Below, piece by piece: positions 23,576 through 57,330 of a stretch of DNA of 64,000 nucleotides. The stretch lies in contig JAAYTD010000043.1 of the NCBI GenBank assembly GCA_012518115.1, positions 1 through 64,000 on the forward strand. Direction: 5' to 3'. The position numbers and the translations under genes were made by a program. The notes beneath the pieces are model-generated. The model was given only the letters and a program-made list of their open reading frames with translations, ran no database searches and was not told where the DNA came from. This DNA is from Ignavibacteria bacterium. Lineage in GTDB: Bacteria; Bacteroidota; Ignavibacteria; Kapaibacteriales; UBA2268. Within the stretch, counting starts at the first letter, position 1. The number at the start of each line of letters is the position of its first letter.

Positions 23576-23592
23576 TTTTCTATTATGATATT

Positions 23593-23640
23593 TTGAATAT
23601 AATTGAGGTAGATAGAAAACATCTACCTCATTTTTTACTT
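23593..23640 (+). terminator. Terminator of purH; left member of a direct repeat pair (DR-L)
   Basis: Stem TGAGGTAGAT (23604-23613) / ATCTACCTCA (23621-23630) with a T6 tail. The segment from TTGAATATAATTGAGG onward is nearly identical to 27631-27678, including 11 bases in front of the stem. The match over non-stem bases indicates true duplication rather than two unrelated terminators. Confidence 0.85.
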
Positions 23641-23794
23641 ATAATTGCTTAGTACCAAAACAAATAAAAAAATATCGCTTTTCAATTAAACCTATTCGAA
23701 TAAATAATGTCTAATAATTATAATTTGAATGTAGAAAATAAATTTTTAATCATAAAATAAATAATTCATTTTGTAAAAAATAGAGGTAATTACA

Positions 23795-24166
23795 ATGAAA
23801 AACATAAGAAAATCAATTATAGCTTTAGCAGTTTTATTTTTTGCTTCTGTATCTGCTTACTCTTGTGAATTTGATTTTGAAATCATAAGCGGTAAGAAAG
23901 ATGTTTATTCAAAAAATGATGAAGTAACTGCAAAAGTAACTTTAACCCAGAATCACAGAAATTGCAGTGAAGGGCTCGGAAACGTTAAATTTGATCCAAA
24001 TGGTATGGAAATTAAACAAGCTACTAAATGGGTTGAAAAATCAAGTGGTGTTTTCGAAAGAAAATTAAAACTAAAAATTACCAGTTCCGATAAAGCTACT
24101 TTAAATGCAGTAAGAACTTGCTCTAAAGATGGCGGAAAAGGAACATTAACTCTCAAAGTTAAGTAA
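23795..24166 (+). CDS. Small secreted cysteine-containing protein, first gene of the iron-sulfur cassette
   Basis: 123 residues. A signal peptide (MKNIRKSIIALAVLFFASVSAYS) is followed directly by Cys, although the sequence before it (SAYSC) is a poor lipobox. The mature part of about 100 residues reads as one beta-sandwich (VYSKNDEVTAKVTLT ... VFERKLKLKITSSDKATLNAVRTCSKDGGKGTLTLKVK) with Cys in HRNCSEG and RTCSKDGG that could form a disulfide or bind metal. I do not recognise a named family. It is separated from the next gene by a terminator-like hairpin, so it may be made in larger amounts than the downstream proteins. Confidence 0.75.
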   Translation: MKNIRKSIIALAVLFFASVSAYSCEFDFEIISGKKDVYSKNDEVTAKVTLTQNHRNCSEGLGNVKFDPNGMEIKQATKWVEKSSGVFERKLKLKITSSDKATLNAVRTCSKDGGKGTLTLKVK

Positions 24167-24190
24167 ATAAAACAGTTAATTAACGATACT

Positions 24191-24222
24191 AACCGTAGGA
24201 GAAAAACTTCTACGGTTTTTAG
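24191..24222 (+). terminator. Internal terminator or attenuator within the iron-sulfur cassette
   Basis: Stem AACCGTAG (24191-24198) / CTACGGTT (24210-24217) with an inner AG/CT pair and a T run. Only 15 or so bases remain before the next start codon at 24237, so no room is left for a separate promoter behind it. Partial read-through is the likely arrangement. Confidence 0.8.
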
Positions 24223-24236
24223 TTAAAAATGTCAAT

Positions 24237-25382
24237 ATGAAAAAATTTTACGCAATTTTACTGATAGCATTTTTTAGTATTTTTAATCTTTATTCTCAAG
24301 ATTGCAATTCTTGCTCGGCAAATAATAAGTGTAACGGTAAAAACACTCCTAAAAGTGCTGCTACAAAACTTGCTCAAAGTTCAGAAGATGAATTTGAAGA
24401 TTACGATCCCGAAAAAGAGTCGCAAAATACAGCAGGAACTACTTCCTCCGATGATGAGTTTGAAGATTATAATCCGGATGCAGATACCGCATCAGTTGCT
24501 GTTGCTCAAGAGGCAGTAATATCTATTCCTATTTATGAACATAGATTATTCTTCCCGATTTCATCTCTAATAATGACCGCTTTAGCAGGTATCTTTGTTA
24601 GGTTCAGTGCTACCCGAAAGTTAAGAGGACTATTCTTAGCAATATCAGTAATTGTATTAGGTTTTTATGTAGGTGCCTGTCCTTGCCCTATATCCAGCTT
24701 TAGCTACACAATCATAGCATTAAGCGGCGGACAGGTGATTTGGGAAAATATGATTTGGTTCCTTGCACTTATCCCGCTAACTTATATTTTTGGTAAAACT
24801 TGGTGCGGTTGGGTGTGCCACTTGGGAGCATTACAGGAATTTCTGTTTATGCCTGCCGGTAAATTAGAGTTCTTAAAAACTCGCAAAGCTCAACAAGTAA
24901 TGAAATATATACGCTACGTATTAGTAGCAATACTGATTGTGCAATTGATTATCACTCATTCATATTTATTTAACAAGATTGATCCATTCAAAACAGCATA
25001 TAATTTAGGATTTAATGCAGGTTATACAGAATGGATATTACTCGGATTATTAGTATTGACTTCAGTATTTATGTATAGACCTTTCTGTAAATCTGCCTGC
25101 CCGATAGGATTGGTTTTAGGCTGGATTTCTAAAATACCGGGAGCATCAGTATTAGATAAAAATGAAAGCTGTGCAGGCTGTACTCTTTGTGCCACAGGAT
25201 GTAATCAACAGGCTATTTATAGAGATCCTGTCAATAAAATATCTGTCATAGATAATAAAGAATGTATCGCCTGCGGTGAATGTTTAGATAATTGTAAAAA
25301 ATGTAGTATGAATTTCTTTAGAAAAAATGAAAAACACAAGACTGTTAATAAACTCTGCAAAGAAAATTTGCCTGCTGATTAG
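24237..25382 (+). CDS. NapH/NosR-type membrane iron-sulfur protein (polyferredoxin-like quinol oxidase component)
   Basis: 381 residues. A signal-like N-terminus (1-20) is followed by a Cys-rich stretch (DCNSCSANNKCNGK) and a low-complexity acidic linker with two copies of an S-(E/D)-DEFEDY-(D/N)-P motif. Then come about five membrane helices (about 100-285) carrying the NapH/NosR/YccM family Cys motifs CGWVCHLG (about 192) and CKSACPIG (about 282). At the C-terminus are two ferredoxin [4Fe-4S] motifs, CAGCTLCATGC (about 312) and CIACGECLDNC (about 342). Family members pass electrons from quinol to periplasmic partners. The next gene overlaps its 3' end by 56 bases. The exact partner is inferred from the neighbours. 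Confidence 0.85.
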   Translation: MKKFYAILLIAFFSIFNLYSQDCNSCSANNKCNGKNTPKSAATKLAQSSEDEFEDYDPEKESQNTAGTTSSDDEFEDYNPDADTASVAVAQEAVISIPIYEHRLFFPISSLIMTALAGIFVRFSATRKLRGLFLAISVIVLGFYVGACPCPISSFSYTIIALSGGQVIWENMIWFLALIPLTYIFGKTWCGWVCHLGALQEFLFMPAGKLEFLKTRKAQQVMKYIRYVLVAILIVQLIITHSYLFNKIDPFKTAYNLGFNAGYTEWILLGLLVLTSVFMYRPFCKSACPIGLVLGWISKIPGASVLDKNESCAGCTLCATGCNQQAIYRDPVNKISVIDNKECIACGECLDNCKKCSMNFFRKNEKHKTVNKLCKENLPAD

Positions 25383-26670
25383 CTTACTTGTTCTAAGTAG
25401 TAATTATAGCTATTCAGGAATGGATTGCCGTAGTATGCTTGGTGGATACATAAAACCATTATTTGGTTCTAAATACGTCGTGGGCGGTATCGAGGTAACC
25501 GGTGCATTTGCCGGTATGACTGATAGGAATATAAAAAACGGTCTGGCTATCGCTGGATTGGGCTTTAATTTTAATGACTCTAAGCATCAAATCTATGTTG
25601 AAGGTGGGTATAAGAATTTTTATAATTCTAAAGGTGGTCCCGGAAGAAAAGGGATTGATACAAGCGGTGCAATTGGTGGGTATGAACAATTTCCTGCTGT
25701 TGATAAGTTAAAATTGAGCTTTCGCGAGCTCTTCTATAAGTATGATGTACCAAACTTTAAAGTGGGAATTGGCTTGCAAACAATGAAACTTCCCGATTAT
25801 TTCTTACTTGATGAAAGAGTTGTTGGACTTAATTCATCACTTAGTTCCGGAAACTTCACTTATAGCGTTACTGCTGCTTCCGTTCTTGCTCAATTTGCTC
25901 GATATGCTGATTTCTGCGGTACTCGTCATATTTATAACCTTACAAGAGGCAGACGAGTTGACTTCTTAGGTGATTATTTTGGTGAATCAAATTTTTGGGC
26001 TGCCACAGTAAAATGGGTAAATAATCCAAGCGAAAATTCACAAGCAACTACTGAAAACAACAGTGAAGATGATGAGTTTGAAGATTTTACTCCTGTAGAA
26101 GTTTCTAAACCCTTTCTGCAAGAAGTAGGCGCTATATTTTACAATGAATTTGGAGCTGCTTTCCCTGATTATAAATACTATGGTGGACTATTTGCCGGAT
26201 TTAATCTCCCTCTAGGAATTAACTTAAAAGCCGAAGCTCTTTATCAATATATTTATAAAGAAAATGCTGTAGGATATTTTGTTGAATTGAGCAAATTATT
26301 TGATTTGGGCAATGGTTTCAGCAGTCTTGTTGGTGCAGCTATGGTGGGAAAGATTGAAATAGATAGCAATACTATGTTTTATCCTTCATATACAAATCTG
26401 TTTATGGGAGAAGTTATGAAAATGGATGCCTTAGATTTGCCTGTAGCTCAAGCATTCGTAAAATTCGATTTCCCTTGGCTTGATAATATGTACTTTAAAA
26501 CTACTGTAGCAGGACAAACCGCAGGTTCTCATACAAAAGAATTAGATTTAGAATTAAGCGCCCGATTTTTTAATCATCTAAAAACAACATTAATCGGTGG
26601 ATATATTAGTTCTGACGCCCTTAAGCAAGATACATATTTCGGAAGAATAGAATTTAGAGTAGCATTTTAA
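25327..26670 (+). CDS. Outer-membrane porin-like beta-barrel of the iron-sulfur cassette
   Basis: 447 residues. A signal peptide (ICLLISLLVLSSNYSYS, cleavage near 32) leads into a beta-strand-rich protein with many Gly/Tyr/Phe turns (HQIYVEGGYKNFYNS, YSVTAASVLAQFARYADFCG, YYGGLFAGFNLPLGINLKAEALYQYIY) and a terminal FRVAF, typical of a barrel. It overlaps the NapH-like gene by 56 bases, which suggests translational coupling. An acidic loop near 240 (EDDEFEDFTP) repeats the motif found in the upstream membrane protein. No known family is recognised with confidence; a 14-18 strand porin is likely from length. Confidence 0.75.
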   Translation: MKNTRLLINSAKKICLLISLLVLSSNYSYSGMDCRSMLGGYIKPLFGSKYVVGGIEVTGAFAGMTDRNIKNGLAIAGLGFNFNDSKHQIYVEGGYKNFYNSKGGPGRKGIDTSGAIGGYEQFPAVDKLKLSFRELFYKYDVPNFKVGIGLQTMKLPDYFLLDERVVGLNSSLSSGNFTYSVTAASVLAQFARYADFCGTRHIYNLTRGRRVDFLGDYFGESNFWAATVKWVNNPSENSQATTENNSEDDEFEDFTPVEVSKPFLQEVGAIFYNEFGAAFPDYKYYGGLFAGFNLPLGINLKAEALYQYIYKENAVGYFVELSKLFDLGNGFSSLVGAAMVGKIEIDSNTMFYPSYTNLFMGEVMKMDALDLPVAQAFVKFDFPWLDNMYFKTTVAGQTAGSHTKELDLELSARFFNHLKTTLIGGYISSDALKQDTYFGRIEFRVAF

Positions 26671-26707
26671 TATTAAAACACATAATTTATATTTGAAAAT
26701 TAATACA

Positions 26708-27559
26708 ATGGAAAATAAAAATAATAATCCACGAAGAGAATTTATTAAAAAGTTCGGATTAATGGGCATCGGGATTTGTGCCGGTGGAACTTTTCTAAAT
26801 TCTTGTACAAAAAATGTGCTTAGTCCATTTAGGACCGGGTATTCTATAAATAGCGAGAAGTGTATCGGATGCGGAGTGTGCGTATCTGAATGCTACTATA
26901 AAGCAATTGTATTGCCATTTAATTCTAAATATCACATAGAACCGGAGCTATGTATCGAGTGCGGAGAATGCGAACCTCAATGTAAATATCAAGCTATTTT
27001 TATAAGTACACCTACTTATAATTTTTTATCAGATAAATGTATTGGCTGCGGCAAATGTATAGAAAAATGCGTAAATGAAGGAAATTGCATCACTTATGAA
27101 AAAGAAACATACACGATAAGGAACAAATGCAAACCGGGTCGCTGCGAGCATCAGTGCGAAAAAGCTTGTGAGTATGGAGCTATAACAATAGCTGACAAGT
27201 GTGTTATTGATACTGAAAAATGCCAAAAATGCGGTAAATGCGTAGCTGCTTGTCCATACAATGCGATTAATCCCGCAAAAGTAACTAAAGATGAAGCAAA
27301 ATGTACTCATTGTGGTCAATGCTATGAAGTTTGTACTGAATTTAATGCTATAGAAAAAATTAAACCTGACGGATATACTGAACCGCATATAGATCAAACT
27401 ATATGTACAGCTTGCGGAGATTGCCGAACATTCTGCACTAAATACGATGCAATTAAATATAAATTAGAAATTGCGCGCATTGACAGTTCACTATGTGTAG
27501 ATTGCGGTAAATGCGTTTCGAGCTGCGAGCAAAATGCTATTGAATTAATAGAAATATAA
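26708..27559 (+). CDS. Tat-exported lipid-anchored polyferredoxin, eight 4Fe-4S motifs
   Basis: 283 residues from the ATG at 26708 (an in-frame TTG at 26693 is less likely). The N-terminus has a twin-arginine motif NPRREFIKK, a hydrophobic stretch, and a lipobox-like FLNSC (Cys 33), so the folded protein is probably exported by Tat and anchored by lipid. After that come eight Cys modules: CIGCGVCVSEC, CIECGECEPQC, CIGCGKCIEKC, a divergent CKPGRCEHQCEKAC, CQKCGKCVAAC, CTHCGQCYEVC, CTACGDCRTFC and CVDCGKCVSSC. These could hold up to eight [4Fe-4S] clusters, i.e. a chain for electrons. No catalytic domain is seen. Confidence 0.88.
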   Translation: MENKNNNPRREFIKKFGLMGIGICAGGTFLNSCTKNVLSPFRTGYSINSEKCIGCGVCVSECYYKAIVLPFNSKYHIEPELCIECGECEPQCKYQAIFISTPTYNFLSDKCIGCGKCIEKCVNEGNCITYEKETYTIRNKCKPGRCEHQCEKACEYGAITIADKCVIDTEKCQKCGKCVAACPYNAINPAKVTKDEAKCTHCGQCYEVCTEFNAIEKIKPDGYTEPHIDQTICTACGDCRTFCTKYDAIKYKLEIARIDSSLCVDCGKCVSSCEQNAIELIEI

Positions 27560-27630
27560 GTTTAGAATTTACTTAAGTAATTAGTAAGTAAAATAATTCT
27601 CAAATCATCATCTAATTTATAAGAATTAGT

Positions 27631-27678
27631 TTGAATATAATTGAGGTAGATAAGAAAAATCTACCTCATTTTTTTATA
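27631..27678 (+). terminator. Terminator of the iron-sulfur cassette; right member of the direct repeat pair (DR-R)
   Basis: Stem TGAGGTAGAT (27642-27651) / ATCTACCTCA (27659-27668) followed by T7. Twenty-two bases before the loop and seventeen after it are identical to the copy behind purH at 23593-23640; only the loop differs. It closes the cassette. Confidence 0.85.
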
Positions 27679-27718
27679 TACTAAGCATTTTTATTCAAAT
27701 TATTTCCTTACAATTCAT

Positions 27719-54914: not shown

Positions 54915-54950
54915 AAAAGAGAGATTTTATCAAAATAGTCTCTCTTTTTT
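54915..54950. terminator. Bidirectional terminator between the barrel gene and recQ
   Basis: Stem AAAAGAGAGA (54915-54924) / TCTCTCTTTT (54939-54948) with flanking T runs. It serves the plus-strand barrel gene and touches the stop codon of the minus-strand recQ. Confidence 0.8.
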
Positions 54951-57330
54951 ATTTATTATTTTTTATAAAAGCTACAATAATTCTTAGTATTGCAAAATCT
55001 ATTGGATTTTCGAGTTTACTTTGTATATCTCTTAGCATTAAATAAGGTGTTTCATCTATTATTTTTTTGACATTATAATAATCTTCTTTACTAAAATAAT
55101 CATAAGGATTGAGCTCAACTCCATTTTCGATTGCATATTGAATTTGCCTAGCTATCTCACCTTTTGACACTCCAATTTTTTTAGCAACTTCATCTATATT
55201 TTTTCCTTTCAAAAACAGTTTATTAATTTTTATAATCTCTTTAGCAACTTTGTCGTTTGTTTGTTTTTCTGTATGTATATTTTTTTTGATATCTATTTTT
55301 TTCGTAACACTTCTATTTGTCTTTTTTGCTGATAGAATAAACTTATTTTTTTCATAAAAATTTACGCCTGCAGAGCTAACACTCACAACAGGATATTCGT
55401 CTTCTGATAAAATAAGCAGTTTGTTTTCTATAGCTATATCTATTTTTGTTATAATTTCATTTTTTTTAGAATCTTTCAAAATACCGAATAGTTTTTCATT
55501 TATATTCGTATAAGTGCTAAATTTTTCTATGTTCTCACCTATCAAATACTCTCTTATAGAATATCTTCCGTATCTTCCTTTCAATTCTATTGCTACAGAT
55601 ATAATTGCCACATTTTCGAAATCTACAACAATAGTGGTTTTCATTTTTCGTTTTTTACAAGAACTACATTTTTTACATTTTCCGCTATATCTATTATCGT
55701 TGAAATAATTCAATATAAAATTCCTTTTGCATTCTTTTGTTTCAGCATAATCAAACATTCTTTGCAAATTATTTTCAGAATCTTTCTTACGTGCATAAAA
55801 TTCGTTGAAATCCATATTAAATTCATCAAATTCATTTATTTTCAATTGAAATTCATAGGTATTGGGCGCTAGTTCATCTTTAACAGCAACAATATTTTCT
55901 AATTGCAAATATCGCATATTTTTTTCAAAATCTTCTCTTTCTATTTCATATTTCCTAATTAGATAGTCTTTATCTATATCTACAAATTTATATAGACTTT
56001 CTTCGGTTACAGATCTTAATATTGCTTCTAACATTTTACTTTTACTATCACTTAATTTGTTCAAATGGTCAATTAGATTTTCTTTTGTATCTAATATCAT
56101 AATCTGCATATTCTTATTTATATTGTTTTTATTTATGACATTATATCTAACAAATTGCTCTATAATAGTATAAGTTTTTGCTGCATTTAGTCCTGTTTTA
56201 TTTGCAATTTCTATTTCAGTGAAGAAAGAAGTTTCTGTTTTTTGATTTTTGAAAAAGTCAAAGAGTTTAATAAACTCTTCTTTTGGAGGAAAAGTTGAGT
56301 TAATAAAGTATTCTTGTAATTTTATATCATTTAAGTTATAGAAAAGATAGCAATTAGATTCTTTACCGTCGCGTCCTGCCCGTCCTGCTTCTTGATAGTA
56401 AGCCTCTATACTTCCCGGCAAATTATAATGAATAACATTACGAACATCAGCTTTATCTATCCCCATTCCAAAGGCATTTGTCGCTACAATAATACTGTTT
56501 TTGTTATTTATGAAATCATCTTGATTTTTTTGTCTTTGTGAGGCAGACATTCCCGCATGATACCTGTTTGCTTTAATATTGTCCACTATAAGTTTTTTAT
56601 ATACGTCATCAGTATTATTGCGAGATCCACAATAAATAATTGTACTTCCTTCTTGATTATCAGCTACAATATTTTTTATTTTCTGGAATTTATCGCTTGT
56701 TTTTTCCGTCAGATAGCTAAGATTTGGTCTATCAAATCCGCTAACAACTCGTTTAGTTTTTTTCATTTTAAGTGCTTTGATAATATCATCTTGCACTTCT
56801 GGAGTAGCTGTAGCTGTTAATGCTACTTTATTAGAAATACTTATATCTTCTAAACTATCCACTATATTTAGATATGACGGTCTAAAATCATGTCCCCATT
56901 GAGATATACAATGAGCTTCATCTACTGCAATAAAAGAGATTTTTATCTGGCTTAAAATCGTTAGAAATGCTTGGCTCTCTAACCGTTCAGGTGCAATATA
57001 TATTAATTTATATTCTCCTTTTACCAATTTATTTATTCGTTCGCTATATTCATCTCCTTGCAAACTGCTATTAATATAAGTGCAACTAATTCCACGTTTT
57101 TCTAAAGCTTCACTTTGATCTTTCATCAACGCAATAAGAGGTGAGATAACAATTGCCGTACCTTCTAAAATTATCGCAGGTAACTGATAGCATAATGATT
57201 TCCCACCTCCTGTTGGCATAACAACTAAAGTATCATTTCCTTCAATAATATCTTTAATTATTTCATATTGGGCATTGCGAAATTCTTCAAATCCAAAATA
57301 TTGGCGTAGCTTTTTATAAATCAATGACAT
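54949..57330 (-). CDS. recQ: RecQ-family ATP-dependent DNA helicase with C-terminal helix-turn-helix
   Basis: 793 residues. Motif I MPTGGGKSLCYQLP (38-51), motif II VDEAHCISQWGHDFR (about 135-149), TATATPEVQDD, GFDRPNL, IATNAFGMGIDKADVR, and the Arg-rich motif VI QEAGRAGRDG. The zinc-binding cysteines follow, CKRN ... CKKCSSC (about 535-560), then the RQC winged-helix region. There is no clear HRDC domain; instead the C-terminus (about 695-793) has a helix-turn-helix (NIDEVAKKIGVSKGEIARQIQYAIENG), as in many Bacteroidota RecQ proteins. Unwinds 3'-5' at replication and recombination intermediates. It is close behind the HIT gene on the same strand. Confidence 0.93.
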   Translation of the reverse strand: MSLIYKKLRQYFGFEEFRNAQYEIIKDIIEGNDTLVVMPTGGGKSLCYQLPAIILEGTAIVISPLIALMKDQSEALEKRGISCTYINSSLQGDEYSERINKLVKGEYKLIYIAPERLESQAFLTILSQIKISFIAVDEAHCISQWGHDFRPSYLNIVDSLEDISISNKVALTATATPEVQDDIIKALKMKKTKRVVSGFDRPNLSYLTEKTSDKFQKIKNIVADNQEGSTIIYCGSRNNTDDVYKKLIVDNIKANRYHAGMSASQRQKNQDDFINNKNSIIVATNAFGMGIDKADVRNVIHYNLPGSIEAYYQEAGRAGRDGKESNCYLFYNLNDIKLQEYFINSTFPPKEEFIKLFDFFKNQKTETSFFTEIEIANKTGLNAAKTYTIIEQFVRYNVINKNNINKNMQIMILDTKENLIDHLNKLSDSKSKMLEAILRSVTEESLYKFVDIDKDYLIRKYEIEREDFEKNMRYLQLENIVAVKDELAPNTYEFQLKINEFDEFNMDFNEFYARKKDSENNLQRMFDYAETKECKRNFILNYFNDNRYSGKCKKCSSCKKRKMKTTIVVDFENVAIISVAIELKGRYGRYSIREYLIGENIEKFSTYTNINEKLFGILKDSKKNEIITKIDIAIENKLLILSEDEYPVVSVSSAGVNFYEKNKFILSAKKTNRSVTKKIDIKKNIHTEKQTNDKVAKEIIKINKLFLKGKNIDEVAKKIGVSKGEIARQIQYAIENGVELNPYDYFSKEDYYNVKKIIDETPYLMLRDIQSKLENPIDFAILRIIVAFIKNNK

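Follow-up and report, generated by a model that had tools for sequence, protein, structure and literature searches.

A candidate haem-free iron–sulfur electron route between the two membranes of anaerobic Bacteroidota

Introduction

Known outer-membrane electron conduits use haem chains, and MtrB, the barrel of MtrCAB, has 26 strands. At the inner membrane, NapH-type proteins are mostly quinol oxidisers; CcoG, a Fer4_5 protein related to the NapH-like ones, reduces copper. For NapH itself, the proposed electron path leads from menaquinol to NapG in the periplasm (PMC5928378), and NapH-like proteins are described as modular electron suppliers for many extracytosolic oxidoreductases (PMC8238504). 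The Aromatoleum aldehyde oxidoreductase AorABC forms an iron–sulfur protein nanowire (PMC10413684). Here we analyse a four-gene cassette in a 64,000-nucleotide stretch of DNA from an Ignavibacteria bacterium (the window; positions 1 to 64,000 of contig JAAYTD010000043.1, assembly GCA_012518115.1). The cassette encodes a small secreted immunoglobulin (Ig)-like protein, a NapH-like membrane protein, an outer-membrane β-barrel and a lipoprotein polyferredoxin (Table 1). With about even confidence, we read it as encoding a haem-free iron–sulfur (Fe–S) path by which anaerobic Bacteroidota could move electrons from the inner to the outer membrane, a reading favoured by conserved gene order, export signals and a rule that matches the two arms of the polyferredoxin in length.

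Gene order is conserved around a two-gene core

All four genes are present on the forward strand where an earlier reading of the window, made without database searches (the sequence-only reading), had placed them. Its small secreted Cys protein and its membrane protein with NapH/NosR Cys motifs and ferredoxin motifs are confirmed, as is a barrel gene with a signal peptide that overlaps the NapH-like gene by 56 bases (25327–25382). The overlap recurs in relatives L131, L133 and L140.

A scan of genome contigs seeded on the DEF motif (592 stretches, 3 loci) proved poorly seeded, giving two named relatives, Candidatus Kapaibacterium GH34 and Marinilabiliales BM520. Searches for the barrel in class and phylum samples, and for the small protein in the phylum sample, matched the window alone. 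The family opened up when the small protein was sought in 247 genomes of the order of the Marinilabiliales genome, 21 of which carry it. A NapH-like gene stands next to or near the small-protein gene in 15 of the 19 loci fetched; ten of these 15 also have the barrel, and the order small protein, NapH-like protein, barrel is constant in all ten. The conserved centre of the polyferredoxin was found in 8 of 393 genomes, and all seven polyferredoxin genomes within the 247-genome sample belong to its 21 small-protein carriers.

Full four-gene cassettes occur in the window, G784 and G774, and with the small-protein gene cut by a contig end in G660 and G717; that of G653 spans a contig break across which the overlapping protein sequence is identical. 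The barrel lies directly upstream of the polyferredoxin in eight of ten cases, the exceptions being G612 and G704. The Marinilabiliales genome (L039) keeps the first three genes in window order, with a 22-cluster polyferredoxin elsewhere in the genome. A search of 54 genomes of the window's own family found the small-protein and NapH-like genes by themselves in G614, G022 and G011, with the barrel in G026, and the barrel and polyferredoxin together in G014.

Judged from these loci, cassette order and sequence are kept across orders, into distant Bacteroidales genomes, and not by chance. The order proposed for comparison by the sequence-only reading thus recurs, and conservation extends to the barrel gene together with those for the NapH-like protein and the ferredoxin. 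Its picture of four genes as a single set holds for their order; by gene content the core is the small and NapH-like pair, to which the barrel and then the polyferredoxin are added in subsets. In favour of a role in respiration, rnf genes lie near small–NapH–barrel cassettes in two Bacteroidales genomes (L134:406-5544 and L138:6272-9668).

Polyferredoxins have two arms of matched length

The window polyferredoxin carries an RRxF motif for twin-arginine translocation (Tat), a lipobox Cys and 36 Cys in total, arranged as seven CxxCxxC modules and one degenerate module. Eight clusters are therefore possible, as the sequence-only reading had counted in describing a Tat-signal lipoprotein of eight modules. 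Export, which it had also assumed, agrees with a Tat motif and lipobox Cys in 12 of 12 polyferredoxins (ten full-length and two short two-cluster proteins), by sequence.

Counted on either side of the degenerate centre, the ten full-length proteins have 3/4, 5/6, 9/10, 7/8, 7/8, 10/11, 6/7, 7/8, 7/8 and 4/5 modules. The number after the centre equals the number before it plus one in all ten, for totals of 8 to 22 clusters. Random re-pairing of the arms gives this result with a probability of ~5e-6, or 1 in 5040 (~2e-4) if only seven distinct values count. Module spacing is uniform in the N-arm (29–30 residues) and mostly 33–35 residues in the C-arm, with no alternation, and modules of equal and unequal parity are equally alike (44 versus 46%). 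We considered tandem pairing of modules (1–2, 3–4 and so on) and rejected it as the simple model: the arm before the centre has an odd number of modules in some proteins and an even number in others, the spacing shows no alternation and there are no odd and even module types. With arms of both kinds flanking one fixed centre, consecutive pairing is untenable. The two matched arms probably contribute one half each to every ferredoxin domain, the N-arm and C-arm halves nesting into a hairpin of adjustable length; a rod built in this way would grow only by adding one half per arm.

The residues after the lipobox are often K, T or R; these are no clear signal for surface export. For this reason a membrane-anchored rod spanning the periplasm seems at least as likely as a protein held inside the barrel or outside the cell.

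A NapH-like protein and a predicted 18-strand barrel share DEF repeats

The NapH-like protein matches PF12801 (Fer4_5) twice, at 49.7 bits (cut-off 22), and has a C-terminal 4Fe-4S dicluster domain (PF13237; 27.5 bits, cut-off 25.5). Its best NCBIfam matches are NapH (TIGR02163, 78 bits against a cut-off of 213; NF007013, 76 against 234) and NosR (73 against 1000), all far below cut-off. No FMN (flavin mononucleotide)-binding domain was matched in the 381 residues. Guided by hydropathy and charge, with positive loops placed on the cytoplasmic side, we assign it an acidic, Cys-containing periplasmic N-terminus, five transmembrane (TM) segments and a cytoplasmic C-terminal domain for two [4Fe-4S] clusters. 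A CPCP motif then falls at the periplasmic end of TM2, with CGWVCH and FCKSACP on the cytoplasmic side. The two CX3CP motifs of NapH are not both present in the window protein: the second reads CKSACP, but the first reads CGWVCH. Most members likewise have CH at this place, whereas one clade has CY and G784 has CP.

The Cys pair of TM2 is kept in nine of nine barrel-bearing cassettes whose genome has a Tat-exported ferredoxin and is missing in six of six where none was found. These six form a single clade (support 99/99), so the loss counts as one event; two-gene cassettes keep the pair. The pattern is suggestive, not proof, of an electron hand-over site at this pair.

Two further NapH-like loci stand apart from the cassettes. 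The host has a second paralogue (L093:8744-9751, minus strand; G000:C70) with an EFEEFEEFEEF N-terminus and no small protein or barrel adjoining; its flippase neighbour is kept in a genome of the same genus, G001. In a Marinilabiliales genome that also has the cassette, a separate NapG-like Tat ferredoxin and NapH-like gene lie beside PQQ-repeat-like proteins (L095:7733-9602; G612:C133).

AlphaFold2, run on 13 relatives, models the barrel with 18 strands (mean predicted local distance difference test score, pLDDT, 69.8; loops poor). Residues 48–447 match the 18-strand porins AlgE, Occ/OprD and MOMP (Z ~23–26, root mean square deviation ~3–4 Å), and MtrB is not among the fold matches listed. 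The barrel is predicted to be of the 18-strand porin type, with a C-terminal Phe and conserved Cys 34 and Cys 197. The long loops 3–4, 7–8 and 13–14 are placed outside, with strands counted from either end.

A turn between strands 8 and 9 holds an insert that is variable, yet contains DEF repeats in every full-length member. DEF repeats also occur in nearly all NapH-like N-termini, the exception being the G001 paralogue, and in both places they are several-fold above the expectation from composition. If the 18-strand topology holds, both sets are expected to face the periplasm. We infer a common binding partner for them, with the small Ig-like protein as first candidate because it is the constant neighbour. 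Elsewhere in the window, a 793-aa open reading frame (ORF; 54949-57330, minus strand) has seven DEF-like motifs, the most of any.

No linked NapA was found, either in the cassette of the window or in those neighbourhoods of the relatives that were read, and no unrelated reductase recurs in them, which agrees with the observation in the sequence-only reading that the set comes with none. The cassette might instead supply electrons to a reductase of the periplasm or cell surface whose gene is unlinked, much as NapGH serves NapA, the barrel being a substrate porin only and no electrons crossing the outer membrane. We think this rather unlikely. Its appeal is that NapH is the closest annotated family, that NapH-like systems supply many oxidoreductases (PMC8238504), that barrel and polyferredoxin are separable among loci and that the best-matching porin folds are substrate channels or exporters. 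Yet no reductase recurs beside the cassette, a soluble enzyme needs no 8–22 clusters with matched arms, and the presence of DEF repeats on a partner in each membrane points to a bridge.

The small protein and possible metal handling

The small protein has three Cys: one at or near the mature N-terminus, one in an HRxC motif and one near the C-terminus. Across a 24-member alignment, C24, H54, C57, W79, R107 and C109 are invariant. Its AlphaFold2 model is all-β (pLDDT 87.7) with Ig-like structural neighbours, and we predict an Ig-like sandwich. Neither it nor the barrel matched a family in Pfam, NCBIfam or PHROGs, or any sequence in the PDB. Fold matches to the periplasmic domain of ammonia monooxygenase and to many Ig domains were set aside as a clue to function, being weak and generic. 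A DsbD-type thiol relay of small and NapH-like proteins was likewise rejected, there being no thioredoxin or DsbD domain.

The host genome has a second, lone copy of the small protein without cassette neighbours (L145:8143-8526, minus strand; G000:C89). A further locus that speaks for respiration is L136:107-2552 (minus strand), where a small-protein gene stands last in a series that includes a DUF5777 barrel, a CXXCH lipoprotein and a DUF2271 protein with a type IX sorting domain; in other bacteria, proteins with DUF2271 carry flavin (PMC8238504).

Reductive metal handling or maturation, already offered as an alternative in the sequence-only reading, would have the NapH-like protein reduce periplasmic metal ions or thiols in the manner of CcoG or DsbD, the small protein carry the metal or thiol and the barrel import metal. 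The absence of a FixG_C domain (the mark of CcoG; no Pfam match in the NapH-like or the small protein) or a thioredoxin domain, and the length-matched polyferredoxin arms, which it leaves unexplained, make this explanation unlikely in our estimation. What keeps it in view is the small and NapH-like pair found without barrel or polyferredoxin, the conserved HRxC with two further Cys, and copper reduction by the related CcoG. To these can be added two loci, L139 (6831-8578) and L141 (6816-8675), in which the barrel is followed by genes for a short Tat ferredoxin with two clusters, for another small protein that has only one of the three Cys, and for an ArsP/SO_0444-type permease, although the permease is confined to these two related loci.

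Locus limits and host genome

The window is part of a 2.48 Mb metagenome-assembled genome, of which 58% (1.43 Mb) was read stretch by stretch; what follows on absences in the organism refers to that part. A member of the same family is 'Candidatus Kapaibacterium' GH34, which is placed in Kapaibacteriaceae, Bacteroidota. The limits given in the sequence-only reading, 23593-27678, are set by a duplicated terminator: the repeat TTTGAATATAATTGAGGTAGAT with its hairpin stands at 23592 and 27630, a 22-base exact match where zero are expected by chance. The 1.43 Mb read contain no further copy. Insertion of the cassette behind purH is suggested by this flanking repeat. The repeat was also considered as a mobile-element end and rejected, with no recombinase gene seen and only a duplicated purH-type terminator; it remains a hint of insertion. 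A third, strong terminator-like hairpin between the small-protein and NapH-like genes may allow that protein higher expression.

Table 1. Features of the cassette and its flanks, in window coordinates
Feature	Position	Strand	Basis
Terminator hairpin on the purH side, left copy of the flanking direct repeat	23592..23640	+	Hairpins −13.6/−13.9 kcal/mol (two copies)
Small secreted Ig-like protein, 123 aa	23795..24166	+	Signal peptide, three Cys, AlphaFold2, alignment
Terminator-like hairpin between the small-protein and NapH-like genes	24191..24217	+	11-pair stem, T run, −16.8 kcal/mol, z −4.2
NapH-like inner-membrane protein, 381 aa	24237..25382	+	Pfam/NCBIfam scores, hydropathy, motifs
Two DEF repeats (EDEFED, DDEFED) in the NapH-like periplasmic N-terminus	24384..24467	+	Repeat sequence
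Predicted 18-strand outer-membrane β-barrel with signal peptide	25327..26670	+	AlphaFold2, fold comparison
Barrel DEF insert EDDEFEDFTPVEV, turn between strands 8 and 9	26065..26103	+	Periplasmic side inferred from strand count
Polyferredoxin, a lipoprotein with Tat signal; eight [4Fe-4S] modules, two arms with a degenerate module between them	26708..27559	+	Motif reading
N-arm with three CxxCxxC modules 30 and 29 residues apart	26861..27127	+	Module count
Degenerate central module CKPGRCEHQCEKAC	27128..27169	+	Conserved block among relatives
C-arm, four CxxCxxC modules	27221..27556	+	Module count
Terminator of the cassette and right-hand copy of the direct repeat	27630..27680	+	Exact repeat and hairpin

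With a probable bifurcating [FeFe] hydrogenase set and no motif of a monohaem cytochrome or terminal oxidase, the host looks like an anaerobic fermenter, for which an electron sink would be of benefit. The part read has a single multihaem protein (863 aa, 11 CXXCH; L215:1559-4150, plus strand; G000:C34). This protein adjoins genes read as ETF dehydrogenase and EtfAB.

The lifestyle bears on direction. The same conduit might run inward, an external donor being oxidised and its electrons entering via barrel and polyferredoxin; the parts permit either direction, and PioAB-type conduits carry electrons inward in Fe(II) oxidisers (PMC10304953). A host of this kind needs a sink more than a source, and the NapH-type proteins are mostly on the quinol-oxidising side, which makes inward flow highly improbable.

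Discussion

We favour an Fe–S electron route from the inner to the outer membrane. By this route the NapH-like protein would draw electrons from menaquinol (the host has what we take to be a MenA-like prenyltransferase) or cytoplasmic ferredoxin, releasing them at the Cys pair at the periplasmic end of TM2. The polyferredoxin would gain its clusters and fold in the cytoplasm, be exported by Tat and then become lipid-anchored. As a rod of nested ferredoxin domains (four here, up to 11 in relatives), it would carry electrons across the periplasm, with the barrel as its outer-membrane partner or end. The DEF repeats of NapH-like protein and barrel would bind their common partner, probably the small Ig-like protein, and so hold the pieces together. 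The final acceptor would lie outside the cassette, either extracellular or an outer-membrane or surface reductase; the scheme would also allow inward flow. A fuller version, which we put forward tentatively, is a cytochrome-free conduit in which the nested-halves polyferredoxin spans the periplasm, electrons pass through or onto the 18-strand barrel and the DEF repeats dock both membranes to an Ig-like linker.

Several points weigh against the route. About half of the cassettes with a barrel have no polyferredoxin, and other cassettes have no barrel; the small and NapH-like core must therefore do something without either. The cassette lacks a gene for a terminal acceptor or reductase, and electrons may or may not reach the cell exterior, the further destination named in the sequence-only reading; as far as we can judge, the polyferredoxins have no clear surface-export signal after the lipobox. 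The arms are proposed to nest because of their module counts, and the functions given to the small protein and the DEF repeats are likewise proposals.

If the route is real, surveys based on CXXCH motifs miss electroactive bacteria, notably among fermentative Bacteroidota of anoxic habitats. The matched-arm rule predicts a fold, that of nested ferredoxins, and supplies a natural series of Fe–S wires (8, 10, 12, 14, 16, 20 and 22 clusters) for measuring transport against length.

Among described systems, the NapGH, NosR and RdhC/PceC modules share with the cassette a Fer4_5 membrane protein, Cys motifs, a C-terminal 2[4Fe-4S] domain and a Tat-exported Fe–S partner. Unlike NosR and RdhC, the cassette's NapH-like protein has no FMN-binding domain and bears instead an acidic, Cys-containing periplasmic N-terminus with DEF repeats. 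In contrast to these modules, the partner is a lipoprotein of 8–22 clusters, a barrel is added, and there is no NapA, NosZ or RdhA. CcoG has an Ig-like FixG_C domain on its Fer4_5 protein, whereas the cassette encodes an Ig-like small protein separately.

MtrCAB and PioAB likewise encode together an inner-membrane electron source, an exported wire of many cofactors and an outer-membrane barrel. The sequence-only reading had named the MtrCAB type for comparison; the cassette is not a member of it. The four proteins have no haem motif (no CXXCH occurs in any window ORF of at least 70 aa), no homology was found, and the predicted barrel has 18 strands and Occ-, AlgE- or MOMP-like folds rather than the 26 strands of MtrB, and is not shown to be of the MtrB kind.

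The methanogen polyferredoxins MvhB/VhuB and FwdF also hold a long run of [4Fe-4S] modules in a single chain, and MvhB is the closest solved sequence. The window protein scores 51 against VhuB (cut-off 600) and 48.5 against FwdF (cut-off 375); a 20-cluster relative scores 92 and 143, respectively. MvhB and FwdF reside in the cytoplasm, bound to enzymes, whereas the cassette polyferredoxin appears to be exported and lipid-anchored, with a degenerate centre and matched arms of variable length. AorABC too uses Fe–S clusters as a long electron wire (PMC10413684), in the form of a filament of enzyme with polyferredoxin-like subunits; the cassette has one exported chain and no enzyme. In the open-access literature, to which our search was confined, no paper describing the set or a polyferredoxin of the periplasm paired with a barrel was found. 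The cassette falls into none of the named families that were tested, among them MtrCAB, and we liken it to a NapGH module stretched across the periplasm to the outer membrane.

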